Positions 2 to 18,662 of a stretch of DNA of 33,017 nt are shown here, one piece after another; positions within the stretch are counted from its first letter, which is position 1; every line of letters begins with the position of its first letter. The position numbers were made by a program, and so were the translations under genes. The notes under the pieces were generated by a model. The model saw only the letters and a program-made list of their open reading frames with translations, ran no database searches and was not told the origin of the DNA. Source of the stretch: Candidatus Saccharimonadota bacterium (lineage in GTDB: Bacteria > Patescibacteriota > Saccharimonadia > Saccharimonadales > Saccharimonadaceae); NCBI GenBank assembly GCA_017510985.1, contig JAFWLR010000003.1:1-33017 (forward strand). The letters are read 5' to 3'.

Positions 2-1774
2 AACGATAATACTTCTGGCAATACTTATACCATGGCGATTGGTGCTAGACTAGACTATACTATAGCTCAAGGAATCTATACTACGGAGTTTGTAGTGGCG
101 GCAGTAGGGAATCCTACACCTTATACTATTACTTATAATGCCAATGACGGAGCCAGTGGAGCTAATACTACTAATATGCCCACCAATATCACAAATGGAG
201 AATTGAATGGAGAAACTACCAATCTTAGCTCTAACATTCCTTATCGTAATGGCTACTTATTTGTAGGCTGGTGCACGAGCTCAGTAGTAGATAATGGGAC
301 TTGCACTAGCCCTAATACTCTTTATGGAGCGGGAACTACTTATGCCCTAAACCAAACTAGCACTAGCAACAACTTAGAGCTTTACGCCGTCTGGAACTCT
401 TGTAGTGGTATCGATGCTGCATCACTTTTGTATTGTAAAGTACAAGCTCAAGTGAAGAAAGATGGTAGTGGCAATGAACTTACTCAGACCCTAGCTGATA
501 TGCATGTAGAAATCACCGAGCCTACATCAAATGACCCATCTACAGATACTAGTAATTCTGGTGTATATAAATATGATGCTACTCTCTTTGGTGTAGCTAG
601 TGATGCTGCTAATACCATGCCCATCTACTACTTCCGTGGTATCCTAGACCAGACTTATAAATACTCAGATGCACCTAATGATGAACCATCAGGTATTCCA
701 TCCAGCGGTGATTCTGCTTACTACCAGAACTATGTCATCTTAGATCAAGATGGCACTAAAGATACCACAGACACTTGCTGGCGCATTGTAAGAACTACTG
801 GTTCCGGTGGAACTAAAATGATCTACAATGGCAACTGGAATGCTACAGATGGGTGTGCTAGAGCACAAGGTAATGCGCAGACTGGCTCTACTTACTTTAA
901 CCGTGGAGGTGCTAATACTAACATAGATTATGATAAAGTTAATAATACTGAAGACCTATATGGCACTAGGGGCTATGCAGTTTATGTAGGATATAACTAC
1001 AATAACGACTACAAATATGCTGGTAATCCTTCAAATGTTAGTTCTTATACTACAAGCACTCTCAACAAAGATCTCTTTGCAAACATTAACGAAGATGGCA
1101 TTATGACTTCTTCTAATCTCAAAACTACTGTAGAGAATTGGTACCAAAATACCAGTAACTTACCTAACTTTAGCAGTAAATTAGAAACTAGTGCTGGATG
1201 GTGTAACGATAGGTCTACTACTTCTTCACCACTAGATACTGATTCTACAATTCCTTATGCGCCAGGTTCTACTTACGGGACTAGTAGTGGCATTACTTTT
1301 GGCGCAGGACGAAGAAACTATTGGAGTAATGGAAAAGCATCTCTAACTTGCCCCAACGTAACTGGTCAGGATCTATTATCTACTGGCGCTACAAATAATG
1401 TAAACAACGGTTTAACTTATCCCTTAGCCCCCCTAACAGAAGATGAGGTAGCCTTTGCTGGGCACGGCTATCCGGTGGCTACCACGGTGGATGGACAAAC
1501 TAAATATTACCCAACCACAGCATCAACCTATTCTTCTAGATGGTCCTATCGCTCCTATTTGCGGTCCGGCTCCAGTTTCTGGCTGCTGTCGCCTATCTAT
1601 CGGTCCTCCGCGCTCGGTTTTGTCTCCGCGTTCTACGTGACCTCGATTGGATGTTCCGGGAGCAACTACGTCTATAATTCTTATGGGGTGCGGCCCGCCA
1701 TTTCGCTCACCTCTGGAACGACGGTGGCGAGCGGGAGTGGCACAGCGGCAGATCCGTGGGTGATAAGACCGTAG
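2..1774 (+). CDS. DGR target surface protein with InlB-type repeat and C-terminal variable lectin-like domain (5' partial)
   Basis: The reading frame is open from base 2, so the true start lies upstream; the ATG at 32 is internal. Counting from that ATG, residues about 29-121 read as an InlB B-repeat (Listeria-Bacteroides repeat), with YTITYNANDG at the start and LYAVW at the end. A Ser/Thr/Asn/Tyr-rich stretch with DTCWRIVRTTG and KMIYNGNW follows. The C-terminus has the layout of DGR-diversified C-type-lectin-like domains: FWLLSP, a variable patch, then GVRPAISL. Residues about 510-558 are encoded by the variable repeat, and about 22 invariant residues follow. It is probably secreted or surface-anchored and binds a varying ligand on the host cell or a competitor; that role is inferred from family behaviour. 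Base composition changes sharply near 1430, from AT-rich with ACT/AGT/AAT codons to GC-rich. The stop is TAG. Confidence 0.9.
   Translation, partial: NDNTSGNTYTMAIGARLDYTIAQGIYTTEFVVAAVGNPTPYTITYNANDGASGANTTNMPTNITNGELNGETTNLSSNIPYRNGYLFVGWCTSSVVDNGTCTSPNTLYGAGTTYALNQTSTSNNLELYAVWNSCSGIDAASLLYCKVQAQVKKDGSGNELTQTLADMHVEITEPTSNDPSTDTSNSGVYKYDATLFGVASDAANTMPIYYFRGILDQTYKYSDAPNDEPSGIPSSGDSAYYQNYVILDQDGTKDTTDTCWRIVRTTGSGGTKMIYNGNWNATDGCARAQGNAQTGSTYFNRGGANTNIDYDKVNNTEDLYGTRGYAVYVGYNYNNDYKYAGNPSNVSSYTTSTLNKDLFANINEDGIMTSSNLKTTVENWYQNTSNLPNFSSKLETSAGWCNDRSTTSSPLDTDSTIPYAPGSTYGTSSGITFGAGRRNYWSNGKASLTCPNVTGQDLLSTGATNNVNNGLTYPLAPLTEDEVAFAGHGYPVATTVDGQTKYYPTTASTYSSRWSYRSYLRSGSSFWLLSPIYRSSALGFVSAFYVTSIGCSGSNYVYNSYGVRPAISLTSGTTVASGSGTAADPWVIRP
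1561..1707 (+). repeat. DGR variable repeat (VR)
   Basis: This stretch aligns without gaps to 2061-2207 at a constant offset of 500 bases. Twenty positions differ. Nineteen of them are adenines in the template copy (of 34 adenines there), while 112 of 113 non-adenine positions are unchanged. Changed sites in the VR are 1575, 1596, 1598, 1604, 1605, 1610, 1613, 1614, 1619, 1620, 1625, 1626, 1634, 1641, 1653, 1662, 1667, 1682 and 1699. The one non-A difference is at 1700. The pair 1699/1700 probably marks the IMH versus IMH* difference at the 3' end. The VR is in frame in the target and ends with CGGCCCGC, two differing bases, then TTTCGCT. Confidence 0.97.
1704..1733 (+). promoter_or_regulatory. 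Candidate stem-loop at the 3' edge of VR
   Basis: CGCTC (1704-1708) can pair with GAGCG (1729-1733), and ACC with GGT just inside, with a small bulge. It starts within the last bases of VR/TR identity. In the Bordetella phage DGR, a GC-rich hairpin or cruciform just after the IMH promotes target recognition, so the position fits. The stem is short and has not been folded with software. Confidence 0.35.
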
Positions 1775-2060
1775 GATAGGATAATTGCACTTTAAGTTCC
1801 AGATACCTCGCGGGCGAAGCCCGCGACCCAAAAAGCTCGCCCCGTCCGGTGCGAAGGCCAGGCCTGAGCGCCGGCACCCGGTGCGTCCGATAGGGCGCCC
1901 GAGTGAGGGGCAAAGGGGATTAGCGATTCTGCTTCTGGCGAGGGCGGAGACATGCCTCGTCAGAAGCAGGGTTACTAATGTGACCCTGAAGTACCTTGCC
2001 GTAAGAAGTTCGCCCCCTGTTGGTGGTTGGGTGTCTCTGGGACTTTTGCCGTGGTGGGAG
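1775..2060 (+). ncRNA. GC-rich structured spacer between target gene and TR
   Basis: I see no credible gene here; the open frames in it are by-products of high GC. Two clear hairpins are present. The first is 1809-1825, with CGCGGGC pairing GCCCGCG around a GAA loop. The second is 1929-1969, a 15-bp stem with an 11-base loop whose only non-Watson-Crick pair is G-U on the + strand, which suggests selection as RNA. The first could also serve as the end of the target transcript, although no T tract follows. The stretch is probably the 5' part of the DGR template RNA or its flanking region. The remainder, about 1830-1920, is very GC-rich with overlapping short self-complementary words. Confidence 0.5.
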
Positions 2061-2207
2061 GCGGTCCGGCTCCAATTTCTGGCTGCTGTCGCCTAACAAT
2101 CGGAACTCCACGAACGGTAATGTCAACGCGTTCAACGTGAACTCGATTGGATATTCCGGGAACAACAACGTCTATAATTCTAATGGGGTGCGGCCCGCAC
2201 TTTCGCT
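2061..2207 (+). repeat. DGR template repeat (TR)
   Basis: This is the invariant template for the VR at 1561-1707. Read in the VR frame it stays open and carries 14 AAC/AAT asparagine codons. Twelve of these are a different residue in the VR (Ser, Ile, Tyr, Leu, Phe, Thr). Adenines at the first two positions of AAY codons give the widest amino-acid range without making stop codons, as is typical of DGR templates. Homology to the VR begins abruptly at GCGGTCCGGC. The frame ends at a TGA (2212-2214) just past the repeat. It should not be annotated as a protein gene. A small CCCC-TGAA-GGGG hairpin follows at 2217-2228. Confidence 0.97.
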
Positions 2208-2494
2208 GATTTGATTCCCCTGAAGGGGTTGAAACATCGGTTATACGTATTTCGCGAACAGATATATGTATATTGTCTAATGTGGAGGCCCATTCACTTG
2301 GGACCGGCGGTTAAAACTGCTGGTCGGGGAGCGTATAAAATTATGCGTCCCAAGATAAGTGAAATAGGCGAGTTACTTTAGCGCGAGAGGTAAAGCTCTG
2401 GCCTTAAATGAAATTGAGAGGTAGGCAGGATCGACAAGTAGTGTAAGTAATTACAACGAAGCGTAGGTCCTGTTGAAGCTCAGATGGAATACAG
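2208..2494 (+). ncRNA. Structured leader between TR and avd
   Basis: No gene is seen. After a short hairpin (2217-2228), a larger fold is visible. Bases 2293-2303 pair with 2348-2363, interrupted by a five-base bulge. They enclose a GC-rich hairpin (2304-2311 with 2316-2323) and a weaker one near 2331-2345. In known DGRs the RNA just downstream of TR is needed to prime and position cDNA synthesis with Avd and RT. This stretch is the counterpart by position, and that function is inferred. The avd start follows an AGATGGAATACAG leader that lacks a strong Shine-Dalgarno sequence. Confidence 0.5.
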
Positions 2495-2962
2495 ATGAAA
2501 AAACTAAGTAAACGAGATACAGGCGAGACTCCGGACTATGAGCCGTTTAAAATACGGCAGCTATTGATGGACCTGGATGAATATTTGAGAATTTTTATTT
2601 TGCCACAGATACCGGCGGAATATAAAGAATACCGAGAAGAAATACGTGAGGCGATGAACCAGGCGTGGCGAGCGCTTTATCGGGCTGGGTTTACTATGAA
2701 GCGGGAGCGACAGAAGCGACTAATAGATTTAAAAGTAGAGTTAGCAATGGCGGAAACATACCTTAAGGAGGTGCGAGATGTGTGCTATCGGGGAAAAGAG
2801 AGGAAGAAGTTGGATAAGGTTTCAGTGCGAAGGTTTGAGATTTGTGCAGGAAAACAGAAGGCGGTAATGAATATGTTGTGGGGGTGGATCACGAATGAGG
2901 ATAAAAAATTGGATTCAAGCAGAACCGAGAAGACGGTGGGGCTAGTGGAGGAGGAAGTTTAG
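2495..2962 (+). CDS. avd: DGR accessory variability determinant (Avd-like four-helix protein)
   Basis: This 155-residue, mostly helical and basic protein lies between TR and the reverse transcriptase, the standard position of Avd. Avd proteins are four-helix bundles related to the 23S rRNA intervening-sequence protein family. They form pentamers that bind the RT and the template RNA and are required for mutagenic retrohoming. The pattern fits: an N-terminal YEPFKIRQLLMDLDEYLRIF helix, an Asn/Trp-containing second helix, a basic third helix (MKRERQKRLIDLKVELAMAE), and a last helix near KQKAVMNMLWGWI. Its TAG stop overlaps the RT start by one base, so the two are translated together. The identification rests on context plus fold type rather than a sharp motif. 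Confidence 0.87.
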   Translation: MKKLSKRDTGETPDYEPFKIRQLLMDLDEYLRIFILPQIPAEYKEYREEIREAMNQAWRALYRAGFTMKRERQKRLIDLKVELAMAETYLKEVRDVCYRGKERKKLDKVSVRRFEICAGKQKAVMNMLWGWITNEDKKLDSSRTEKTVGLVEEEV

Positions 2963-4038
2963 TGGCGCATAGAAAGACGAGAAGAATATATGATGCGGCG
3001 CTAGAATATGAGAGGTTATATGCGGCGTGGAATACGGTGCTACATACCTGTAAGAATAAGAGGGGGCTGTATAAGTTTGCTTTATTTGGGCAGGCGAAGG
3101 TGGCGAAGCTATTAGAGGATTTAAAGGCGAGAAAATATTGGCCATCTAGATATAGGTGCTTTATGGTGTTTGAGCCAAAGCCGAGGCTAGTGATGAGCCA
3201 GTCGATTAAAGATAAGGTGGTGAATCATTTTGTAACAAGAGAATACTTGATACCGATATTGGAACGAACATTAATTGATACTAATGTGGCAACAAGGGTG
3301 GGTAAAGGCTCGGCTTATGCTCACAAAATGGTGTGGCGGTATATGACGCAAATGATGGCGGAGCGACCAGGAGCGAAGATTTATGCACTAAAGATAGATA
3401 TATCGAAGTATTTTTATACCATAGACCACGAGATATTAATGGATAAACTAAGAAAGAAAATTAAAGATCCAGACGTGCTAGAATTGATTCGACGGATTGT
3501 AAGCGAGACGGATAAGCCGTATATAAATAGAATAATTAGTAAGTTTAATAAATATTATTGTACAAAGATACCGTTTTATTTGAAAGGCAAGGGGCTTTCG
3601 ATTGGGGCAATGACGTCGCAGTTTTTGGCGATTTTTTATTTGAGTGATTTGGATTGGAAGATTAAAGAGGAATATGGATGCCGGTGGTATCTCAGATATA
3701 TGGATGATTTTTTGATATTGGGGTGGGATAAGGCGGAGCTACAAAAGTTGGCGAAGGTGATTGAAGAAGAGCTGAGGCAAGTAGAATTAGAGGTGAATCC
3801 GAAGTCGGCGATATATAATTGTTGCTTTTTGGCGGGATTTTCGTTTTTGGGATATAGGTATTATATAGATAATGGTAGATTGCGAGTAGTATGCCTAGCT
3901 AAAACAGTGCGAAGAGTGCGAAGGAGGTTGAGGCTGCTAGAGGAATGTAATTATGAAAAATATCAGCGGTCGTATGAGTCTTATCGAGGGTATTTTTGGC
4001 AAGCGTGGCCAAAACGGGAAATTGAAGAGATGGTTTGA
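2962..4038 (+). CDS. DGR reverse transcriptase
   Basis: This RT has 358 residues and a GTG start overlapping the avd stop, preceded by GGAGGAGG. The catalytic aspartates are visible: Asp146 in KIDISKYF, and the YMDD box at residues 246-249 (RYMDDFLILG). IGAMTSQ at residues 214-220 matches the (I/L)GxxxSQ box that separates DGR RTs from group II intron RTs (QG) and retrons. There is no maturase or HNH domain and the length is normal for the family. It copies the TR RNA into cDNA and misincorporates opposite adenines; the cDNA replaces the VR. The stop TGA lies 26 bases before a tRNA-Pro gene, so the DGR ends at a tRNA cluster. Confidence 0.96.
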   Translation: MAHRKTRRIYDAALEYERLYAAWNTVLHTCKNKRGLYKFALFGQAKVAKLLEDLKARKYWPSRYRCFMVFEPKPRLVMSQSIKDKVVNHFVTREYLIPILERTLIDTNVATRVGKGSAYAHKMVWRYMTQMMAERPGAKIYALKIDISKYFYTIDHEILMDKLRKKIKDPDVLELIRRIVSETDKPYINRIISKFNKYYCTKIPFYLKGKGLSIGAMTSQFLAIFYLSDLDWKIKEEYGCRWYLRYMDDFLILGWDKAELQKLAKVIEEELRQVELEVNPKSAIYNCCFLAGFSFLGYRYYIDNGRLRVVCLAKTVRRVRRRLRLLEECNYEKYQRSYESYRGYFWQAWPKREIEEMV

Positions 4039-4064: not shown

Positions 4065-4140
4065 CTGGGTGTGGCGCAGTTGGTAGCGCGCGACTTTTGG
4101 GAAGTCGAGGTCGCTGGTTCAAGTCCAGTCACCCAGACCA
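4065..4140 (+). tRNA. tRNA-Pro(TGG)
   Basis: A full cloverleaf can be drawn: acceptor CTGGGTG with CACCCAG, D arm GCGC/GCGC, anticodon stem CGACT/AGTCG around loop TTTGGGA (anticodon TGG with G37), and T loop TTCAAGT. The CCA is encoded. C1-G72 fits proline. Outside the anticodon arm it is almost identical to the next tRNA, which suggests a tandem duplication. Confidence 0.95.
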
Positions 4141-4156
4141 AGTTGAGGGGGATTTT

Positions 4157-4232
4157 CTGGGTGTGGCGCAGTTGGTAGCGCGCAGCGTTCGGGACGCTGA
4201 GGTCGCTGGTTCAAGTCCAGTCACCCAGACCA
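4157..4232 (+). tRNA. tRNA-Pro(CGG)
   Basis: The body is the same as the preceding tRNA, with the anticodon arm replaced: CAGCG/CGCTG around TTCGGGA, giving anticodon CGG with G37. The CCA is encoded. It follows the first tRNA after 16 bases, so they are probably co-transcribed. Confidence 0.95.
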
Positions 4233-4252
4233 CGTAATATTTATGTGATTGT

Positions 4253-4329
4253 CTGGGATTGGCGCAGTCCGGTAGCGCGCACGCATGGGGTGCGTGAGGC
4301 CAGGAGTTCAAATCTCCTATCCCAGACCA
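4253..4329 (+). tRNA. tRNA-Pro(GGG)
   Basis: Acceptor CTGGGAT pairs with ATCCCAG. The anticodon stem CACGC/GCGTG surrounds ATGGGGT, giving anticodon GGG with G37. The T arm is AGGAG/CTCCT around TTCAAAT, and the CCA is encoded. It is more diverged than the other two. A run of six T follows at once and may help termination. Confidence 0.95.
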
Positions 4330-8862: not shown

Positions 8863-9714
8863 TTATTCAACTTTTTTCCTGAAATTGATAATATTTTGAT
8901 GATGATGGTTGATTTTGTAAGCGTATGGATAGCCAAACGGATAGAGCGGTTTGTTATCTTGCAATAAAATAGTAGTGCCGACGAATTCGAAGCCTATTTT
9001 ACACATGATACGAACTATATCGGCTTGGACGCAAACTTCCTTTTTGTTAACAGTAAAATCACTTATGATGATAGTTGTATAGGCTTTATTGCGTAATTTT
9101 GTGAAAACTTTTTGCATGACTTTTTGTAATAATAACAGAAAATCATCGTAGGTATCTTGATTGCCTAAGTCGCGTTTGTCATCGGAATAATATTCAACAC
9201 CCGTGCGTGAGCCGCTTCTGAAATTTTGTGAATCTTTGCGTAAACCGCTTCCTTTGTTATGTAAAATATTGTGATATGGAGGGGAAGTGACACAGTAGTC
9301 AATTGTAGTTTTGATTTTGGGGATTTCTCTGAGTGAATCGCCTACAATGATTTCTGTATCGGCGTTTAAAGGAATATTGAGTTGTGATAATCTTTCTTTG
9401 GCTAATTCGCAGTATTTTTTACTTAAGTCTATGCCGATTGATTTACGACCAAGATTGTGGGCTGCGATTAAAGTTGTGCCGACACCATTAAACGGATCTA
9501 GAACAGTCATGCCTTTTTTGGTAAAAAGCGAGATAAGACTTTCTATATCCCGAATAAGAAAAGGTGCAGGATGCTGGAAGGCAAATTTATCATCTTTGCA
9601 TTTTTTACTAACCCAATAGCTCCGAGTTAACTTGAGCCATTCTTTGCCAGTTAGATCGTTGAGTTGATTACGTTTATCGTATTTACCTTTATTTTCTACT
9701 TGTGTTTTTGTCAT
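8863..9714 (-). CDS. DNA methyltransferase (N4-cytosine/N6-adenine type)
   Basis: This 283-residue S-adenosylmethionine-dependent DNA methylase belongs to the site-specific DNA-methylase family (COG0863-like). The AdoMet motif DPFNGVGTT is at residues 73-81 and is followed by IGIDLS. The catalytic motif SPPY is at 144-147 (TSPPYHNI). SPPY is usual for N4-cytosine enzymes but also occurs in adenine enzymes, so the methylated base cannot be fixed. Its ATG overlaps the stop of the upstream methylase in an ATGA (9711-9714), so the two are translationally coupled and probably act together. No separate restriction gene is adjacent. The target sequence is unknown. Confidence 0.88.
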   Translation of the reverse strand: MTKTQVENKGKYDKRNQLNDLTGKEWLKLTRSYWVSKKCKDDKFAFQHPAPFLIRDIESLISLFTKKGMTVLDPFNGVGTTLIAAHNLGRKSIGIDLSKKYCELAKERLSQLNIPLNADTEIIVGDSLREIPKIKTTIDYCVTSPPYHNILHNKGSGLRKDSQNFRSGSRTGVEYYSDDKRDLGNQDTYDDFLLLLQKVMQKVFTKLRNKAYTTIIISDFTVNKKEVCVQADIVRIMCKIGFEFVGTTILLQDNKPLYPFGYPYAYKINHHHQNIINFRKKVE

Positions 9715-12146
9715 GAAAGTTTTTTGCCTAGTTTGATAAAATCGTTAAAGGTTAGTTTTCTTAAATGTGTAAGTTTTTCAAGGTCGGAGTATTTTATGTA
9801 GACCCAACTATTGTCATTGAATGAATTGACAAATAATGGATCTTTGATATTTTTGATTTCTTTTTCACGGTTGTCAGGTATGACCATTATTTTGGGTATG
9901 TCTTTTGTTAGATTGGACGCTCGTTGAATTCCGGAAGTGAAGTTGGTGGAATTTTCTACTTCTAGAGCGGTGACTATTTTGCCATTTGAAATCCATAAAA
10001 GATCAATCATTTCGAGCCGCGATAAGGTGCTTTGATCGAACTGCTGTGATAAGATTGAAAGATCTGTGTAATCGGTAAAATCTCGTAGTTGATGTGATTT
10101 GTATGGCTCTGGCTGTTCTCTGCGTCCGACGTAAGTTTGGAATCCTAGTTTTTTGCCGACATCTAGAGCCCATTTGATGGCTTCGGTATGTTTGGTGAAT
10201 TCTTTTTCGATGTCGCCGCCGGAATATACCCATTTGGTTCCGGATTTAGTAGCATATTTTTTTAATATATTGATAACTGAAACAGCGCTTGGTGTTAAAC
10301 CGTTGGGATATTGAATAAAGATTTCGGCTAAAGCTTCGTCGTATGAGATGGTATGTTTTCTTCGCAAGAGGTTGATGATGCTTTCTTCGACGCGGCCCAT
10401 GAGTGGCTTGTCTGGTTGTGCGATGTATTTTTGGGGGTCTTTGAACCACCAAAAGTCGCCAGCTTTGGTTGCGGTGTTGTCGGTAATTTCAAAAATATCT
10501 TTTAAGTGTTGCTTGAGGTAATTTTCGATGTTTTTGTCAAAGCCATTGATACTGAAGCCGGCGCTAGATAGCTCTGCTAATAGTCCGTTGAAGAGAATTT
10601 GATAAGGAGTGGGCTCATTGCGTTCGGCGATTAGCTTGATGGTGGTATTAAGTAAGAAATTTTCAAATTCTTTTTGGTCGTTATTGAATTCGAGAGATTT
10701 TGCCTTGATACATCTAATGTAAAAATCTGTGCCGGAGGTGCCATAAGGATTGGCCACGTTTGATTCGCCGGTGCGTCGGTTTTGCTGATGGATGACTTTT
10801 TCGATTTTGAAACCGGACATCATAATGGAATTTAGGAATGAATTCCAAATTTCGATTTTGTTGTTATGAAAGGTAAAAACGATTTTGCCGTCGTCTTTTA
10901 AAATGGCGTTTAGGTTTTTGAGAGCTTTGGTAAATTTTTGTTCATAAAGTTTGACGGGGTTTTTATTATTAATAGTAATTTCGGAGTCATAATTTGGAGT
11001 ATACCGTTTGTCGAATTTTTTGAGCCAAATTAACCATATGGTACTGAGGTCGAGATATTGTACTAATCCGCCGTATGGAGGATCTGTCATGATAAAATCG
11101 ACGCTTTTTTCGTCTAAAAATTCGGTGACAGTAAGTACATCGACAATACCGTATTTGATGTCAAAATTGGTACTACGATTACTTTTGTTGCTAGTGTCAA
11201 CGTAGAGGGTTTTGATTTTGTCTTTGCCGATGTAGCTATGAAAATTGCGGAGTGAACTGTCGGTAGATTGTTTACCGAAGCAATTTCCTGCAAAGACATG
11301 GAGGGGGTTCATTTCCATCTGGCGGGTTGCGACTAGGTAGGCTGAACGACCCCAGCTAGTGGAAAAATCGCGATTGGCTGAGGGGCGACGTGGAACATTC
11401 ATTTTGGTGGTGAGATGAAGAGTTTGAACAAAGGAATACATTAGTTGCTTTTTTACGTTTGGATCTTTTTCTTGTTGGATTTTGTCAAAAATTAAGGATA
11501 GGATATATAGATTACGCTTGGTCCATAAATTGATGAATTTTTTGCCGCCGATGTTTTTGATGAAATTAGCGCTAAATGAATCAGTATTTCTGAATTCGTC
11601 GTCGGGTAACCAAGTTTTGATTTGGATTTTTGGGATGGCGGAAATTAGGGCTTTTTCTTGCTGAGTTGGTTGACGAGTGTATCTGTAGCCGTTTCTACCG
11701 GTATGATTGTCGCATTGGATAGCGACTTCATAGATGTCTTTACCGTTCCACTTATAAGCAACGATTTTGGCGTTTTTACAGCCGCATTTTTTGCAAGTAA
11801 CGTGATAATGTTGTTTGTAAATTGGATTTTTTTCTATGGATGTAACGATTCGGTCTGAGCTGGCTTTGAATTTTGCTTGGTCGTAATCAGAAGTTAAAAC
11901 GTCTATAAAAAAGGCCGTCATTGGGTTGAGGTCAAAAGCAATGGCTTTACGCCCGGCTTTGACTGCCTCGAATGCGCTGATGGCGCTGCCGGCAAACGGG
12001 TCAAAAAAGAGACCTTCTTTTGGCGTATAACACTCAATATATTCGCGCCAAATGTTGTGTGGTTTTTTGCCCCAATATTTCATGGCGGCATAAACTTCTG
12101 GCCGAGTTTCTTCTACTAATGCGTAATCAATATCGCGTTTGCCCAT
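9711..12146 (-). CDS. Large DNA methylase with Zn-ribbon-like insert and C-terminal nuclease-like domain
   Basis: This 811-residue protein has AdoMet motif DPFAGS at residues 49-54 and catalytic DPPYGG at 355-360. Between them lies a zinc-ribbon-like cluster (Cys118, Cys121, Cys123, Cys145, His148). That layout resembles the COG1743 adenine-specific methylases with a Zn-ribbon. After about residue 580 come a winged-helix-like stretch (about 585-640) and a segment with MIDLLW (Asp715) and ALEVEN (Glu729, Glu731). This resembles a PD-(D/E)xK nuclease core with Glu in place of the lysine. If real, this is a fused restriction-modification enzyme, otherwise an effector or DNA-binding module. The gene appears to be leaderless, with TATAAT ending six bases before the ATG. 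Confidence 0.82.
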   Translation of the reverse strand: MGKRDIDYALVEETRPEVYAAMKYWGKKPHNIWREYIECYTPKEGLFFDPFAGSAISAFEAVKAGRKAIAFDLNPMTAFFIDVLTSDYDQAKFKASSDRIVTSIEKNPIYKQHYHVTCKKCGCKNAKIVAYKWNGKDIYEVAIQCDNHTGRNGYRYTRQPTQQEKALISAIPKIQIKTWLPDDEFRNTDSFSANFIKNIGGKKFINLWTKRNLYILSLIFDKIQQEKDPNVKKQLMYSFVQTLHLTTKMNVPRRPSANRDFSTSWGRSAYLVATRQMEMNPLHVFAGNCFGKQSTDSSLRNFHSYIGKDKIKTLYVDTSNKSNRSTNFDIKYGIVDVLTVTEFLDEKSVDFIMTDPPYGGLVQYLDLSTIWLIWLKKFDKRYTPNYDSEITINNKNPVKLYEQKFTKALKNLNAILKDDGKIVFTFHNNKIEIWNSFLNSIMMSGFKIEKVIHQQNRRTGESNVANPYGTSGTDFYIRCIKAKSLEFNNDQKEFENFLLNTTIKLIAERNEPTPYQILFNGLLAELSSAGFSINGFDKNIENYLKQHLKDIFEITDNTATKAGDFWWFKDPQKYIAQPDKPLMGRVEESIINLLRRKHTISYDEALAEIFIQYPNGLTPSAVSVINILKKYATKSGTKWVYSGGDIEKEFTKHTEAIKWALDVGKKLGFQTYVGRREQPEPYKSHQLRDFTDYTDLSILSQQFDQSTLSRLEMIDLLWISNGKIVTALEVENSTNFTSGIQRASNLTKDIPKIMVIPDNREKEIKNIKDPLFVNSFNDNSWVYIKYSDLEKLTHLRKLTFNDFIKLGKKLS

Positions 12147-12319: not shown

Positions 12320-13444
12320 ATGATAACAATAAATTTTGACCCAAAGGTGGATGAAGTTAAAACGGCAGAGATATTGAAGGCGATTGCGCATGATAAAATG
12401 GGTGGTTGGTTGACGCTGCCAAAAAGGTTTGATATGGGGGAGTTTGTGCGGATTAAGGAGGCGGCGAAGAAGATCCAAGAAGAAAGTGAATATTTAGTAT
12501 GTATTGGAATTGGAGGGTCGTACCTAGGGCACCGAGCGATTATTGAGGCATTGCACCCACATTCGGAAACCAAAATTATTTATGCGGGAAATTCTTTAAG
12601 TCGGCGGGAGTTAGATAGGGCATTAAAAAAAGTGGGAGATCATGATTTTTCGGTTAATGTAATTTCAAAATCTGGTACTACTTTGGAGCCAGCAATAGCG
12701 TTTGGTGAATTTAAGAAGAAATTGATTGAAAAATATGGTGAGGAAGAAGCGGCGGGGCGGATTTATGCGACGACAGATCGTAAGCAAGGCGCTTTACATG
12801 ACGAAGCGGTGGCGGCAGGCTATACTATGTTTGTGGTACCAGATAATATTGGGGGGCGATATTCAGTGCTTTCGGCAGTGGGGATTTTGCCAATGGCAGT
12901 GGCGGGGGTGAACGTAGATAAATTGCTGGAAGGGGCGGCAGAAGCGGTAGAAAAGGTAGTAGAGCCGGCGACTAAATATGCTTGGATGCGATATTCGCTA
13001 GCTAAGAAAAATTACGATACGGAAGTATTTGCGAGTTTTGAGCCGGCGACGATGTATTTTAATGAGTGGTTGAAACAGCTATTTGGTGAAAGTGAGGGAA
13101 AAAATAAGCAAGGAGTGTTGCCGGTGTCAGTGGTGTATTCTACGGATTTGCATTCTTTGGGGCAGTTTATCCAGGATGGAAGGCGAAATTTATGGGAAAC
13201 GATTATTGATTATCCTACGGACGAAATTAATGCTAAAGTAGTGAAAGCGGTGCAGGTGGCGCATATAGGGGGTGGGATTCCGGTTTTGAATATCGGAGTG
13301 TCGAGTTATGATGAAATGGGGTTTGGGGAGTTGATTTATTTCTTTGAGCTTTCGTGTGCGGTTAGCGCAAAATTATTCGGCGTGAACCCATTTGATCAGC
13401 CGGGAGTGGAAGCCTACAAAAACGAGCTTAAGAAGTTATTATAG
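12320..13444 (+). CDS. pgi: Glucose-6-phosphate isomerase
   Basis: It interconverts glucose-6-phosphate and fructose-6-phosphate in the cytoplasm. Sugar-phosphate-binding signatures are visible: GIGGSYLG (residues 63-70) and SKSGTTLEP (116-124), then GGRYSVLSAVG and the C-terminal FFELSCAVSAKLFGVNPFDQPGVEAYK pattern given here in parts (FFELSCAVSA, NPFDQPGVE). With the start at 12320 the protein has 374 residues, shorter than the 430-450 of typical bacterial enzymes, as is common for compact CPR proteins. GGAGG five bases upstream supports this start. The 3' end overlaps the end of the convergent arcC gene by 17 bases. No terminator is visible between them. Confidence 0.94.
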   Translation: MITINFDPKVDEVKTAEILKAIAHDKMGGWLTLPKRFDMGEFVRIKEAAKKIQEESEYLVCIGIGGSYLGHRAIIEALHPHSETKIIYAGNSLSRRELDRALKKVGDHDFSVNVISKSGTTLEPAIAFGEFKKKLIEKYGEEEAAGRIYATTDRKQGALHDEAVAAGYTMFVVPDNIGGRYSVLSAVGILPMAVAGVNVDKLLEGAAEAVEKVVEPATKYAWMRYSLAKKNYDTEVFASFEPATMYFNEWLKQLFGESEGKNKQGVLPVSVVYSTDLHSLGQFIQDGRRNLWETIIDYPTDEINAKVVKAVQVAHIGGGIPVLNIGVSSYDEMGFGELIYFFELSCAVSAKLFGVNPFDQPGVEAYKNELKKLL

Positions 13445-14369
13445 TGCCGGCTTGACTAGACAAGGCAGATTTTAAATGAGGAATATCAGTGATAATGCCG
13501 GTGCCACCTTTTTTGGCAAATTTGATAGTGGCTTCGACTTTGGGCAACATAGAACCGGGTTTGAAATAACCGTATTTAATAAGATTTTGTAGTTCTTTGG
13601 CGGTAATGCGGTGAATAGGCTCTTGATTAGATAAACCGTAATTGATATAGACATTAGGCACGGCGGTGACGGAAGCGAAAATATCGGCATTTATTAGCTC
13701 GGCAAGTTTTTCGGCAGCGTAATCTTTGTCAATAACAGCGTCGATACCTTTGAGTTTTTTGAGAACTTTAGTGCGGTAAACTGGGATGCCACCACCGCCG
13801 GCAGCGATAACAATAATACCATCGGCAACTAGTTCTTTGATGGAATTTTTTTCGACAATGTCAATGGGCTTGGGGGAGGCGACGACGCGACGCCAACCGC
13901 GGCCGGCATCTTCTTTGACAACCCAATGATTTTGGCGAGCGAGTTTGGCGGCTTCGGCGGGGCCGTAGAATTGCCCAATAGGCTTGGTGGGGTTTTTGAA
14001 AGCCGGGTCGTTTTTATCAACTACGACTTGGGACACTATGGTGACAACTTTGCGGCGTTTGCCTTGACGCATGAAAGAATTACTAATAGCTTGGCTAAGC
14101 CAGTAGCCAATTTGACCTTGACTCATAGCGACAGCGGTTTCGAGTGGCATAGCGGGGGCATTTTTGGTGGAAGCGGATTCTTCGTGAATTAAAATGTTAC
14201 CGACTTGGGGACCGTTGCCGTGAGCGATGATAATTTCGTATTTATCGGCAAGTTCGGCGATAACTTCGCCAACAGCTGTAGCGACTCTTTTTTGAGCTTC
14301 AGCGGTGGCTTCGCCGTTTTTTTGGAGGGCGTTGCCGCCTAATGCTAGAACTACACGTTTTTTTACCAT
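13428..14369 (-). CDS. arcC: Carbamate kinase
   Basis: This 313-residue enzyme makes ATP from carbamoyl phosphate and ADP, the energy-yielding last step of the arginine deiminase pathway. It begins with the amino-acid kinase glycine motif (LALGGNALQ) and has AHGNGPQVGN, a Gln/Trp-rich middle, and AAGGGGIPVY, all typical of ArcC. Length is normal. It is transcribed away from arcB, arcA and the antiporter, unlike the single-operon order of most bacteria. The two directions share a 77-base intergenic region. Its -10 ends six bases before the ATG, so the transcript is probably leaderless. It overlaps pgi tail to tail by 17 bases. Confidence 0.95.
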   Translation of the reverse strand: MVKKRVVLALGGNALQKNGEATAEAQKRVATAVGEVIAELADKYEIIIAHGNGPQVGNILIHEESASTKNAPAMPLETAVAMSQGQIGYWLSQAISNSFMRQGKRRKVVTIVSQVVVDKNDPAFKNPTKPIGQFYGPAEAAKLARQNHWVVKEDAGRGWRRVVASPKPIDIVEKNSIKELVADGIIVIAAGGGGIPVYRTKVLKKLKGIDAVIDKDYAAEKLAELINADIFASVTAVPNVYINYGLSNQEPIHRITAKELQNLIKYGYFKPGSMLPKVEATIKFAKKGGTGIITDIPHLKSALSSQAGTIITS

Positions 14370-14375
14370 AAGAAT

Positions 14376-14384
14376 ATTATAGCA
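14376..14384 (-). promoter_or_regulatory. Extended -10 promoter of arcC
   Basis: On the - strand this is TGC-TATAAT, with six bases between the -10 and the ATG, implying a leaderless arcC mRNA. Confidence 0.75.
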
Positions 14385-14393
14385 CGAAAATAC

Positions 14394-14422
14394 TTGCGTT
14401 TAAAATAAACTTAATATATAAT
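14394..14422 (+). promoter_or_regulatory. arcB promoter (-35/-10)
   Basis: TTGCGT (14394-14399), a 17-base spacer, then TATAAT (14417-14422). The leader carries AAGAAGGG before the ATG at 14447. The arrangement is back to back with the arcC promoter, so one regulator could control both directions; no operator is recognised. Confidence 0.75.
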
Positions 14423-14446
14423 AGATAATATAAAGAAGGGCATCAA

Positions 14447-15478
14447 ATGAATTTTTATGGTAGAGACTTTTTAAGAATATTAGATTTTAGCGAGGAAGAA
14501 CTAAAATACATGCTCGCGATGGCGAGAAAATTCAAAGAAATGAAGAAGGCGAAACAAAATCATAAATATTTTCCAGAGAAGAATATCGCGATTTTGTTTG
14601 AAAAGACTTCTACGAGGACAAGATGCTCGTTTGAAGTGGCGGGATATGATCTTGGCATGGGGGTAACATATCTAGATCCAACCGGTTCGCAAATGGGACA
14701 TAAGGAATCAATTGCGGATACGGCGCGGGTGTTGGCGCGGCTTTATGATGGAATTGAATATCGGGGATTTGATCAAAAAATAGTAGATGAATTAGCGGAG
14801 TATGCGGATGTGCCGGTGTGGAATGGACTCACGGATGAGTGTCATCCGACGCAGGCTTTGGGCGATTTTATGACGATAGAAGAGCATTTTGGACATTTGA
14901 AGGGATTGACTTTGGCATTTGTGGGGGATACGCGAAATAATGTAGCAAATTCTTTGATGGCAATGAGCGCTAAGATGGGGGTGAATTTTATTGCTTGTGG
15001 GCCAGTTGGGTTAAGGCCATCGGATGAAATTATTGCAAAGTGTCAACCGATTGCCGAAAAAAATGATTGCACGATTACGGTGACGGATGATATAAGTATT
15101 TTGGATGGTCGAGCGGATGCAATATATACAGACGTATGGTTATCTTTGGGTGAAGATTCGGAAAAATGGGGCGAGCGGATTGAGTTATTAAAACCATACC
15201 AAGTGAATATGGATTTAATGCAAAGAGCGAAAGATACGGCGGTGTTTTTACATTGTTTGCCATCTTTTCATGATCTTAATACTTCAATTGCGCGAGATGT
15301 GAAAGAAAAATATGGTTTGGACGAAATGGAAGTAACAAATGAGGTGTTTGAGTCGGATAAATCAATTGTATTTGAGCAGGCGGAAAATAGAATGCACACA
15401 ATAAAATCTGTAATGTTCTTAACGCTTTGGGATCCTTCTTTAGGAAAGAAGAGTTTGAGTGAGAAGAAACCAGGTTGA
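14447..15478 (+). CDS. arcB: Ornithine carbamoyltransferase (catabolic)
   Basis: In this pathway the enzyme converts citrulline and phosphate to ornithine and carbamoyl phosphate. The carbamoyl-phosphate site STRTRCSFE begins at residue 55, HPTQALGDF is at 133-141, and the ornithine-site motif HCLPSFHD is at 269-276. All are in place, and 343 residues is normal. The catabolic role is inferred from the adjacent arcA, arcC and antiporter genes and the absence of arginine-synthesis genes here. The gene follows AAGAAGGGCATCAA and ends with TGA. A hairpin with a T tract (15478-15512) begins on its stop codon. Confidence 0.96.
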   Translation: MNFYGRDFLRILDFSEEELKYMLAMARKFKEMKKAKQNHKYFPEKNIAILFEKTSTRTRCSFEVAGYDLGMGVTYLDPTGSQMGHKESIADTARVLARLYDGIEYRGFDQKIVDELAEYADVPVWNGLTDECHPTQALGDFMTIEEHFGHLKGLTLAFVGDTRNNVANSLMAMSAKMGVNFIACGPVGLRPSDEIIAKCQPIAEKNDCTITVTDDISILDGRADAIYTDVWLSLGEDSEKWGERIELLKPYQVNMDLMQRAKDTAVFLHCLPSFHDLNTSIARDVKEKYGLDEMEVTNEVFESDKSIVFEQAENRMHTIKSVMFLTLWDPSLGKKSLSEKKPG

Positions 15479-15512
15479 AAATTGAAGTGGAAGTGAATTC
15501 TGTTTCAATTTT
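15478..15512 (+). terminator. Hairpin with conserved loop between arcB and arcA
   Basis: Stem AAAATTGAAGT (15478-15488) pairs with GTTTCAATTTT (15502-15512), including two wobble pairs. It encloses the 13-base loop GGAAGTGAATTCT, and a T run follows. The same loop with a differently spelled stem recurs at 18707-18741. Inside the cluster it may be an attenuator or processing site that sets arcB versus arcA levels. Confidence 0.7.
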
Positions 15513-15538
15513 TAAAAATAATGAAAGGAAAAATATCA

Positions 15539-16768
15539 ATGGGAAAAACAATAAGTAACTTTAGCGAAATTAATCCACTGAAAAAAGTATTAATGCATAG
15601 ACCGGGGGATGAGTTTTTGAATTTAACACCGAATACTTTAGAAAGATTGTTATTTGATGATATTCCATATCTTAAAATTGCTCAGCAGGAGCATGATGCT
15701 TATGCTAATGCTTTAAGGGCAGAGGGGGTGGAAGTAGTATATTTGGTGGATCTAGTAGCAGAGGCAATTGAAAATGGTGGTAGGACAGTGCGAAAGAAAT
15801 TTTTGGAGCAGTTTATTGACGAGGCAGGAGTAACCTCGCCGAAAGTAGTGAAACATTGTTATGATTATTTGAATTCTTTTAAAGATACTAAGGATATGGT
15901 GCGGAAATGTATTGCGGGAATTGATATTTCGGAGCTAAAGAAGTTAGGCTCGATATCGGGATTTTATGCAACGCGGGATACCGGACGAATGATTATCGAT
16001 CCGATTCCGAACTTGTATTTTCAACGGGATCCAATGGCAACGGTAGGAAATGGAGCAACTTTGCACCGGATGTGGTCGGTGACGCGGACGCGAGAGTCGA
16101 TTTTTATGGAATATGTATATAAGTATCACCCGTTTTATGATGATGTGAAATTATATTATGATCGAAGTGAGCCGTATTGTCTTGAGGGCGGAGATATTCA
16201 AGTACTGTCATCCGAAGTAGTGGCGATTGGGATTTCACAACGGACAGAGCCGGACGCAATTGCGAACTTTGCGCGGCGGTTATTTAAAGATAAGTCAAAT
16301 AATTTTAAATATGTATTGGCAATTGATATTCCGGACGAAAGATCATTTATGCATTTAGATACCGTGATGACGCAGGTAGATGTAGATAAATTTGCGGTGC
16401 AAGATGCGATTATGGATATTTCGACAGTGTATGAAATTTCGGCTGGAAAAGGTGGTGAGATTGAAATTATGGAAATTCGTCAGAGTTTGAGTAAAGTTCT
16501 GGAAAAATATTTACATTTAAATAAAGTGGAACTGATAAAATGTGGTAACGGACGACGCATAGATGCGGAGCGCGAGCAGTGGAGTGATGGGGTGAACTTA
16601 TTGTGTATTCGGCCTGGTGTAGTGGCAGCGTATGACCGAAATTATGTAACAAATGCAACACTAAAGAAGCACGGAATTAAAGTGATTGAACTACCGAGTT
16701 CAGAGCTTTCGCGTGGGCGTGGTGGCTCGCATTGTATGACTATGGCGTTAGCCAGAGAGGAGGCATGA
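15539..16768 (+). CDS. arcA: Arginine deiminase
   Basis: It hydrolyses arginine to citrulline and ammonia. Family motifs are clear: the N-terminal NPLKKVLMHRPGDE, PIPNLYFQRDPMATVGNG, the catalytic His in FMHLDTVMTQVD, and the nucleophile Cys399 in GGSHCMTMALARE. I chose the ATG at 15539 over the one at 15521. AAAGGA lies nine bases before it, and the resulting 409 residues match normal arginine deiminases; the earlier ATG adds six residues and has no ribosome site. The ammonia produced also buffers acid, which could protect both the epibiont and its host cell; this is inference from known roles of the pathway. Confidence 0.96.
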   Translation: MGKTISNFSEINPLKKVLMHRPGDEFLNLTPNTLERLLFDDIPYLKIAQQEHDAYANALRAEGVEVVYLVDLVAEAIENGGRTVRKKFLEQFIDEAGVTSPKVVKHCYDYLNSFKDTKDMVRKCIAGIDISELKKLGSISGFYATRDTGRMIIDPIPNLYFQRDPMATVGNGATLHRMWSVTRTRESIFMEYVYKYHPFYDDVKLYYDRSEPYCLEGGDIQVLSSEVVAIGISQRTEPDAIANFARRLFKDKSNNFKYVLAIDIPDERSFMHLDTVMTQVDVDKFAVQDAIMDISTVYEISAGKGGEIEIMEIRQSLSKVLEKYLHLNKVELIKCGNGRRIDAEREQWSDGVNLLCIRPGVVAAYDRNYVTNATLKKHGIKVIELPSSELSRGRGGSHCMTMALAREEA

Positions 16769-16823
16769 TCAGCAATAGATTTTTGACGATAGGGGATGAA
16801 TATTAAAATTAAGAGGACATAAA

Positions 16824-18662
16824 ATGTTTAGAAAGAAAAATCGTAGCAAGAGACGTAGTCGAGCAATGCTTTCGGCATACTCGATTATTATGATTTTGAT
16901 TATTATACTAGGTATTCTTTCTCACGTACTGCCACGAGCACAATTTGCGGTGGCGCCGGTTGAGGGAGATGAGGCTAGTGTGGAAGTAGGTCCGGGTGAG
17001 TGGGAAGGCGAGATGCCGACTGGCGGACCAGCGGAATTAAATGGTGAAGCACCGGCTAGTGAGGAGGCTTTGCCTTTGCCGGAAGGTGAATCGGTAGCGC
17101 CGGTAGTGGGCGATGAAGTTACTACGGGTGACGAGACCAATGCAGGCAATGAAACTACTGAAGCTGCTGGGGATGAAGTAGTGGTGCCGGAAGCAGAAAC
17201 TACGGATGGTGTGCCGGCCGGCAATGACCAAGAGCTAGTGGTTGCGCCGGTTGATAGTACGGATGGTGAAACAACGCCAGAAGAGACTTATGATTCTTTA
17301 GCAGCTTGTGAAGAAGCAAATGGTGAAGGCGCTTGTGCAATCGTAGATGGTTCTGGTGTAGTGGGGGCGGAACTTTATCAAGTTTTGATTGCTCCGATTT
17401 TGGGATTTGAAGACGCGATTGATGTATGTATTTTCGTGATGGTGCTTGGTGGGTTCTTAGCTGTGGTAGCAAAGACTAAGGCGCTTGAAACTGGCATCAA
17501 ACTGTTAGTAAAGAAATTGCATGGCAAAGAATACATTTTGATTCTTTTGCTGATGTTTATATTCTCAATAATGGGTACGACGTATGGGTTTTTGGAAGAA
17601 AGCGTAGGATTTTATGTGTTGATTGCAGCGACGATGTTTGCGGCAGGATTGGACCCGTTGGTGGGTGTGGCGACTATTCTACTCGGTGCGGGGTCTGGTG
17701 TACTTGGTTCGACGATTAACCCATTTGCAACTGGCGTAGCGGTGTCAGCGATGAAGGATGCGGGGATAGATTTTAATCAAGGTACGATTATCTTGATTGC
17801 GACGGTACTGTGGCTTACGACGTTGGCGATTTCGGCGTTCTTTGTGGTGAGATATGCCAAAAAAGTGCAACGGGATAAAGGTTCAACATTTCTTTCATTA
17901 CGTGAGCAGGCGGCAGCAGAAAAGAAGTACGGTAAATATATGGAGACTCATGATGAAGTAATTAAGTTGACCGGTAAACAAATTGCAACTTTAGTAGTGT
18001 TTGCGCTGACGTTTGTAGTAATGATTGTCGGGTTCGTGCCATGGAACGAGTTTGGTATTACGTTCTTTGATGATTGGACGGGATGGCTAACTGGCGCGTC
18101 ACTAGGAAACTGGTGGTTCTATGAAGCGGCGTTATGGTTCTTGATCGCAGCAATTATTATTGCGATTATCAATCGGCAGGGCGAGCATGGATTTATTGAC
18201 ACATTTATCGATGGGGCGGACGATATGATTGGCGTGGTACTGGTGATTGCGGTAGCGCGAGGTGCGTCGGTATTGATGGCGCAGACTTCACTTGATAATT
18301 TTATTGTAGTGAATGCAGCAAACGGACTAGAGAATTTGCCAGAAATGGCCTTTGTGCCTTTGAACTATTTGCTACATGTAGTGTTGTCGGTGCTAGTGCC
18401 GTCATCGTCTGGACTCGCTACTCTATCTACGCCGATTATTGCGCCGGTGGCGGCTACGCTTGGATATAGTACTAACGTGGCAGCTATGACGATTGTGGCG
18501 GCGAATGGATTAGTGAACTTAATTACGCCGACCTGTGGTGCGATCATGGGTGGTTTAGCGCTAGCAAAGGTAGATTATACTACTTGGTTTAAGTGGGGGA
18601 TACGAGTGGTGGCTTGCATTGCGATAGTGAATATTATCGTGTTATGCTTGTTCTCTTTGTAG
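16824..18662 (+). CDS. YfcC-family arginine/ornithine antiporter with a large acidic outer loop
   Basis: This 612-residue membrane carrier belongs to the YfcC/DcuC-like family, members of which serve as arginine-ornithine exchangers next to arginine deiminase genes. The core follows the family closely: LPRAQF after the first membrane helix, APILGFEDAIDV, GTTYGFLEESVGFY, and the STINPFATG and LVPSSSGLATLSTPI regions. Between the first helix (about residues 16-38) and the second lies an insertion of about 120 residues rich in Glu, Gly, Thr, Val and Pro. No Lys or Arg occurs from residue 40 to about 216. Usual members are about 470-510 residues, so this loop is unusual. It should face outwards. 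AAGAGGAC precedes the ATG. Substrate assignment rests on context. Confidence 0.88.
   Translation: MFRKKNRSKRRSRAMLSAYSIIMILIIILGILSHVLPRAQFAVAPVEGDEASVEVGPGEWEGEMPTGGPAELNGEAPASEEALPLPEGESVAPVVGDEVTTGDETNAGNETTEAAGDEVVVPEAETTDGVPAGNDQELVVAPVDSTDGETTPEETYDSLAACEEANGEGACAIVDGSGVVGAELYQVLIAPILGFEDAIDVCIFVMVLGGFLAVVAKTKALETGIKLLVKKLHGKEYILILLLMFIFSIMGTTYGFLEESVGFYVLIAATMFAAGLDPLVGVATILLGAGSGVLGSTINPFATGVAVSAMKDAGIDFNQGTIILIATVLWLTTLAISAFFVVRYAKKVQRDKGSTFLSLREQAAAEKKYGKYMETHDEVIKLTGKQIATLVVFALTFVVMIVGFVPWNEFGITFFDDWTGWLTGASLGNWWFYEAALWFLIAAIIIAIINRQGEHGFIDTFIDGADDMIGVVLVIAVARGASVLMAQTSLDNFIVVNAANGLENLPEMAFVPLNYLLHVVLSVLVPSSSGLATLSTPIIAPVAATLGYSTNVAAMTIVAANGLVNLITPTCGAIMGGLALAKVDYTTWFKWGIRVVACIAIVNIIVLCLFSL

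Follow-up and report, generated by a model that had tools for sequence, protein, structure and literature searches.

In the diversity-generating retroelement (DGR) of the Bordetella phage BPP-1, arranged mtd-avd-TR-brt, a template repeat (TR) and a variable repeat (VR) at the C-terminal end of the target differ through mutagenesis at adenines, the initiation of mutagenic homing site (IMH) is GC-rich with a 3′ marker difference, and a structured spacer lies beside the TR (PMC3240598, PMC12875486). Here we describe a DGR with these features, and with the same reverse transcriptase (RT) family and Avd, in Candidatus Saccharimonadota bacterium. The window, as we call the whole stretch of DNA analysed, is contig JAFWLR010000003.1 of assembly GCA_017510985.1 (33,017 nt; contig C14 of genome G000). 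An earlier note on this DNA had placed VR, TR, avd and a DGR-type RT in that order on one strand, and all four were located on the + strand, spanning 1561-4038. We read this cassette with high confidence as a complete, recently active chromosomal DGR. It differs from BPP-1 in order (VR-TR-avd-RT against VR-avd-TR-RT) and in being chromosomal rather than carried by a phage, and the two RTs are 28% identical.

Treponema denticola (TvpA) likewise has one TR and RT in its chromosome and several remote surface-protein targets, some of them stale (PMC4891356). Its targets are of the FGE-sulfatase type and many are lipoproteins, whereas those of the window element are of the DUF6273 type, with remote targets of graded age. 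In the gut phages nd12 and FP_Brigit (tentaclins, Hoc-like targets) the VR is carried by a C-type-lectin domain, with DUF6273 in nd12 (PMC10743442, PMC11792537); for the window target such a fold is suggested by analogy. The phage targets are virion proteins with immunoglobulin domains, whereas no phage genes were recognised beside the window cassette. Chromosomal DGRs of small-genome bacteria are also on record from the candidate phyla radiation (CPR; clade 2, Roux et al. 2021, PMC8144416), which bears out the earlier note in treating the class as established. The class is known, and there are precedents for CPR DGRs, for DUF6273 targets and for remote targets alike.

The cassette and its target consist of the following features.

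2-1774, + strand: target gene, 590 codons, 5′ end cut by the contig start; paralogs known
1561-1707, + strand: VR, a direct repeat with adenine-specific differences
1685-1698, + strand: GC-rich 14-mer resembling an IMH, GGGGTGCGGCCCGC, at the 3′ end of the VR; the TR has the same 14-mer at 2185-2198
2061-2207, + strand: TR, a direct repeat with the VR, matching it within its own species
2495-2962, + strand: avd, accessory variability determinant, 155 aa, matching the PHROG Avd family (2.3e-10)
2962-4038, + strand: reverse transcriptase of the DGR, 358 aa from a GTG start, with IGAMTSQ and YMDD

VR and TR are 147-nt direct repeats, 86% identical and 500 nt apart. Nineteen of the 34 TR adenines are changed in the VR, against one of the 113 other positions (Fisher p = 9e-14); these counts had been reported before, and our recount reproduced them. 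The adenines are replaced by T at ten positions, by C at five and by G at four. The sole non-adenine change (C>A, 2200) adjoins an adenine change (A>C, 2199), and together they form a 3′-edge marker, GCACTTTC in the TR and GCCATTTC in the VR, that separates TRs from cassette VRs in all five cassette-bearing species of the genus. In genome G120 the marker has its own form (GTATTTTC vs GTCGTTTC). The two changes look like an IMH/IMH* marker and unlike mutagenesis, and the last 12 columns, which hold this edge, were left out of all counts for the mutagenic tract. In that tract alone, 18 of 33 adenines and none of 102 non-adenine positions differ in the window. The GC-rich 14-mer and the diagnostic dinucleotide that follows it, CA in the VR (1699-1700) and AC in the TR (2199-2200), are conserved across the five species and by sequence make up a putative homing signal.

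The VR lies inside the coding frame, and 32 of the 34 TR adenines fall at codon positions 1 or 2. The altered codons are mostly AAC/AAT (Asn), and every replacement leaves the frame open. Adenines placed almost only at these positions, and mainly in these codons, imply that about 15 residues are rewritten in an otherwise fixed domain.

Homing within the genus and at remote targets

The window's own genome is a 0.45-Mb assembly, 60% complete, in a bacterial family with genome sizes of 0.5-1.2 Mb. An RT of the window type was found in five of the 174 genomes surveyed in the genus: G000, G507 (66%), G503 (64%), G523 and G566. Target, TR, avd and RT have the same order in all five species. Among the genes covered in the flanks of the relatives' cassettes none matches a window gene except the surface-protein family, and no mobile-element gene was recognised beside the cassettes. 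The cassette thus appears to occupy different, non-syntenic chromosomal sites among the species.

Upstream of the marker, no non-adenine difference separates the cassette VR from its own TR in G000 (0/102), G507 (0/94), G503 (0/98) or G523 (0/97), although TRs of different species differ at 11-36% of non-adenine positions. Because VR and TR agree within species while the TRs have diverged, each lineage must have copied between TR and VR after TR divergence and did not simply inherit the match; the restriction of differences to adenines sets the direction as TR to VR. We infer from these comparisons that homing has recurred since speciation and that transfer is unidirectional. In G566, whose RT carries a stop and a frameshift, 8 of 95 non-adenine positions differ, as expected if homing had stopped. 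G523 has T at TR positions 9, 21 and 76 in both TR and cassette VR and C in all six of its remote VRs. In the other species' TRs, C occupies the site of position 21 in 4/4 cases, that of position 9 in 3/4 and that of position 76 in only 2/4. The simplest reading would be that the TR of G523 changed, that its cassette VR followed and that its remote VRs did not.

Paralogs of the target lie on other G000 contigs, C11, C6 (C6a and C6b) and C2. The C11 target runs 892 aa to its stop, about 270 residues beyond its VR, and the portion after the VR gave no Pfam match. An internal VR, as in C11 (L005 1-2679), is also seen in the remote targets G523 C2 and G507 C18. The C11 VR differs from the window TR at 24 of 33 adenines and 11 of 102 other positions, and resembles this TR more than that of any other species. 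Six of the 11 non-adenine differences occur in no other TR, while those TRs keep the window TR base. The C11 VR was probably written by the TR of the window lineage and then drifted. G+C content at third codon positions (GC3) is 0.74 in the VR, 0.66 in the C11 VR, 0.72 in the TR and 0.31 in the gene bodies; both VRs have a TR-like GC3 unlike that of the gene bodies and are accordingly TR-derived mosaics. GC3 is host-like in C6a, C2 and C6b, with 35-64 non-adenine differences; by these measures the three are not demonstrably written by the window TR. The six remote targets of G523 show 8 to 29 non-adenine differences, 3′ edge included; the 29, in its C2 target, is inflated by an insertion near the 3′ end and becomes 12/97 with the gap and without the edge. 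Two remote targets in G507 show 5 and 29.

The C11, C6 and C2 genes might alternatively never have been written by the window element, having diverged in the ordinary way, with the likeness of C11 to the TR inherited from a C11/C14 ancestor. The gene-body GC3 and many non-adenine differences of C6a, C2 and C6b fit this account. It meets difficulty in C11, with its TR-like GC3, its 11/102 against 24/33 differences and its proximity to the window TR, and an ancestral shared VR would itself have been written by a TR. We consider this explanation somewhat unlikely, yet the most serious of those weighed here.

Next in weight is the possibility that a complete-looking DGR was recently silenced, the VR being the frozen product of its last homing. 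The RT is broken in two of the four relatives from the genus, the cassette VR of G523 has stayed clean despite an RT frameshifted near YMDD, and the window is a consensus assembly with a single VR. The window's RT, avd and TR are undamaged, however, and 0/102 non-adenine differences leave little time since the last homing. Silencing is unlikely in our judgement. Present activity of the window DGR is likely rather than proven because two relatives have broken RTs, and because the RT of G523 is damaged a clean VR is no proof of a working RT today. Of the earlier claim that the element is apparently active, the between-species comparison bears out recent activity; current activity does not follow, as G523 illustrates.

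Apart from the state of the G523 cassette, several points count against a complete, recently active DGR. Neither in Pfam nor in NCBIfam does the Avd score reach the curated cut-off. The target open reading frame (ORF) is open but its 5′ end is off the contig, and it matches DUF6273 only marginally, at 23.3 bits where the cut-off is 23.5. Structure prediction for the target (AlphaFold, no alignment) gave no usable model (pLDDT 31). The structure of the TR-avd spacer, described below, comes from the very five sequences used to count its pairs. As for damage to the components, which the earlier note had denied, avd, RT and the target ORF are indeed open, and the 5′ part of the target, beyond the contig start, cannot be judged.

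A TR that is a decaying duplicate of the target end, with an adenine bias due to chance or to pseudogene mutation, would fit its position, 286 nt past the target stop, and the codons in common. We give this account practically no credence: it is refuted by a non-adenine VR/TR identity renewed in each of four species, which is impossible for a decaying duplicate, and the p of 9e-14 and the intact avd and DGR RT adjoining the TR also speak against it.

The reverse transcriptase and Avd

Both avd and RT are open, and they overlap by 1 nt, with the RT GTG on the avd stop. The Avd protein, which matched the PHROG family, scored 4.7e-4 with Pfam bAvd, under its cut-off, and matches its counterparts in the four relatives at 59-64%. 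The RT motifs IGAMTSQ and YMDD, noted earlier as marks of a DGR-type enzyme, are present and fit the DGR pattern [ILV]GxxxSQ and YxDD. Among solved structures the best match was PDB 8ub7, a 328-aa RT (2.9e-26), ahead of group II (8e-10) and retron-type (2e-8) enzymes. BPP-1 brt is 987 nt, which gives 328 aa, and from its name, its length and established knowledge we take 8ub7 to be the BPP-1 bRT.

A tree of 38 rows, 33 of them DGR-type, with group II and RT-Cas1 outgroups and no retron, DRT or Roux clade 2 rows, separated the DGR-type RTs, the window RT among them, from the outgroups with support of 100/100. The window RT formed one clade with two copies from G120 and one from G205 (100/100). 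This clade joined (98/94) the DGRs of the gut phages nd12 and FP_Brigit, of Lachnospiraceae and of Clostridiales, one IMG/VR contig and G094, of the same family. Other DGR RTs of this bacterial family fell mainly into two separate clades; they represent at least two other lineages, and the window RT is not among them in a tree from which clade 2 references are absent. With few references in the tree, the affinity to the Firmicutes and gut-phage side is a lead, not an origin. In a scan of genome contigs only Lachnospiraceae/Clostridiales DGRs matched, at 23-25%. Within the 60% of G000 that was recovered there is a single RT of the window type, and so no sign of a second DGR.

An RT from a group II intron, a retron or an anti-phage defence-associated RT (DRT), standing beside an unrelated repeat, is a negligible alternative: NCBIfam does list group II and Drt models and PADLOC lists RT_UG models for this protein, but all NCBIfam scores are far under cut-off (group II 94/300 bits, retron St85 42/235, Drt3a 63/200), the group II and RT-Cas1 rows stand apart at 100/100 in a tree without retron or DRT rows, the top PDB match is an RT of bRT length, and an IGxxxSQ motif and a neighbouring Avd are present. 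These identities were rejected on the NCBIfam scores, the split in the tree and the PDB ranking.

G120 carries two DGRs of this RT clade (loci L037 and L038), one arranged VR-TR-avd-RT on contig C7 and the other target-avd-RT-TR on C9. The layout of G205 (L039) is like that of G120 C9. No alignment was obtained by blastn between the TR flanks of G120 or G205 and those of the window. Across the family, loci L040-L055 represent at least two further RT lineages, and clean TR/VR pairs are frequent among them.

Flanking signals and a proposed mechanism

Five further features flank the VR and the TR.

1712-1719, + strand: arm 1 of an inverted repeat, TCTGGAAC, which keeps its position and covaries across six cassettes
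1796-1803, + strand: arm 2 of the inverted repeat, GTTCCAGA, lying past the target stop
1808-1826, + strand: GC-rich hairpin, 8-bp stem and GAA loop, a candidate homing hairpin or cruciform (shuffles 1/200)
1827-2060, + strand: structured non-coding 5′ flank of the TR (fold z taken over 1775-2060), partly conserved in four relatives
2208-2494, + strand: structured TR-avd spacer RNA, candidate region for RT-Avd recruitment (z -5.1, alignment, covariation)

The inverted repeat of the window encloses the target stop in a 76-nt loop. A repeat of 7-9 bp was found at the same place in all six cassettes examined, with loops of 69-76 nt. Its third pair changes from T-A to C-G in G566 and G120; the ninth is T-A, G-C or C-G elsewhere and unpaired in the window. 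Shuffle counts for single cassettes ranged from 0/100 to 12/100. Because arm 1 is coding (SGT) and arm 2 non-coding, conservation of arm 1 is partly protein-driven. Counterparts of the hairpin lie at about the same distance in G503 (GTA loop), G566 (GAA) and G120_C7 (TCCT), and were less clear or not found in G507 and G523. The remote target G507 C18 has four non-adenine differences upstream of the marker and looks recently homed, yet it has neither hairpin nor inverted repeat, which weakens the idea that the repeat is strictly needed for homing.

In BPP-1, efficient homing depends on a GC-rich hairpin that has a GRNA loop and lies no more than 24 bp from the VR (PMC3240598), although this stem-loop is not an absolute requirement (PMC12875486). 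The window hairpin differs in lying about 110 nt from the IMH and in its 3-nt loop, the BPP-1 loop being 4 nt. Nanoarchaeal DGRs have GRA loops, and DUSEL4 resembles the window in a post-VR hairpin with such a 3-nt loop and in a short IMH/IMH* diagnostic difference (PMC4372165). In DUSEL4, however, the hairpin is inside the target gene, whereas in the window it follows both the stop and an inverted repeat that loops out 76 nt.

Both flanks of the TR fold better than shuffled sequences (1775-2060, z -5.3; 2208-2494, z -5.1); those of G120_C7 fold less strongly (z -1.8 and -2.2). The TR-avd spacer could be aligned in five species, with 88.6% of cells paired in the RNAalifold structure against 33-51% when the spacer was slid as a control. 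In 25 of 55 pairs both sides had changed (shuffled mean 14.0; 0/500 as high), a count made on the sequences that yielded the structure, and covariation is support, not proof, of that structure. An Rfam scan returned only tRNAs and a sub-threshold YrlA match, and none for the spacer. In BPP-1 the spacer beside the TR recruits RT-Avd (PMC12875486), and by analogy the window spacer likely does so too. The suggestion that this structured RNA may be new holds in that it is structured, covaries and has no Rfam match, and not in kind, as BPP-1 is already known to have a structured TR-RNA spacer (PMC12875486).

These elements suggest the following mechanism. A transcript with the TR between its two structured flanks would be bound by Avd and RT. 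The cDNA made off the TR would receive random bases opposite template adenines and would replace the VR of the adjoining DUF6273-type gene. Conversion would start at the GC-rich IMH (1685-1698) and reach up to about 1561; the copied tract would end at the IMH because the CA/AC mismatch beyond it is retained in VR and TR. The same machinery would also have written, less recently, into at least one paralog elsewhere, C11.

We propose only tentatively, as a possibility on the unlikely side, a travelling target-TR-avd-RT cassette lineage in small-genome bacteria that writes a dispersed surface-protein family, frequently at the cassette and rarely in trans. Its target signal would have two parts: the inverted repeat would loop out the last target codons and the stop (about 75 nt) and so move the distant GAA-loop hairpin next to the IMH. 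If so, the remote copies would serve as a slowly changing record of earlier TR sequences. The five species offer a natural experiment, with intact and broken RTs, a cassette VR that keeps pace with its TR, and remote VRs that differ in age by degrees, and their comparison can test cis against trans homing, the effect of RT loss and the sequence signals of homing. The window comes from a small bacterium, probably a symbiont, of a group believed to grow on the outside of other cells, and a self-rewriting surface protein would have an obvious possible use there; the purpose may be to vary surfaces in contact with host or phage.

The target family and the surrounding genes

The target combines a List_Bact repeat region with a C-terminal DUF6273-like domain that ends in the VR. 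G000 has five members of the family, the window's included, and across the target family five of nine members match DUF6273 (best 5.5e-6). The full-length paralogs C2, C6a and C6b carry a hydrophobic, signal-peptide-like stretch behind an unusual N-terminal extension, and the target is for this reason taken to be a surface protein. The extension common to the C2 and C6 paralogs (loci L066, L065 and L067) reads SESVSRxPGRDVRDSIxTxEGKCITxTGTF; C6a has an additional segment behind it.

A PDB profile search with the target family gave nothing significant. The DUF6273 domain of a gut-phage DGR target was modelled as a C-type lectin with the VR on an exposed hairpin (PMC10743442), and by analogy the C-terminal domain of the window target likely has this fold. 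Neither a TR pattern search nor a target search matched IMG/VR, and phage records held no close or direct match to target or cassette DNA. The target, which the earlier note thought might be new, is so only in part, as DUF6273 C-type-lectin targets occur in gut-phage DGRs (PMC10743442, PMC11792537).

At the 3′ end of the contig (32249-33016, +) lies the start of a target-like surface protein, which matches the G566 target protein at 38%, and both contig ends seemingly break within the repeated surface-gene family. Directly 3′ of the DGR RT are three tandem tRNA-Pro genes (4065-4329, +) with anticodons TGG, CGG and GGG. Two neighbouring N6/N4 DNA methyltransferase genes occupy 8863-12146 (-) and encode 283 and 811 aa, the longer with long stretches without a Pfam match. 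Genes for carbamate kinase (by sequence), ornithine carbamoyltransferase, arginine deiminase and a DcuC-type carrier are grouped at 13428-18662 and form the arginine-deiminase route; arginine deiminase is reported from Saccharibacteria (PMC10221324).

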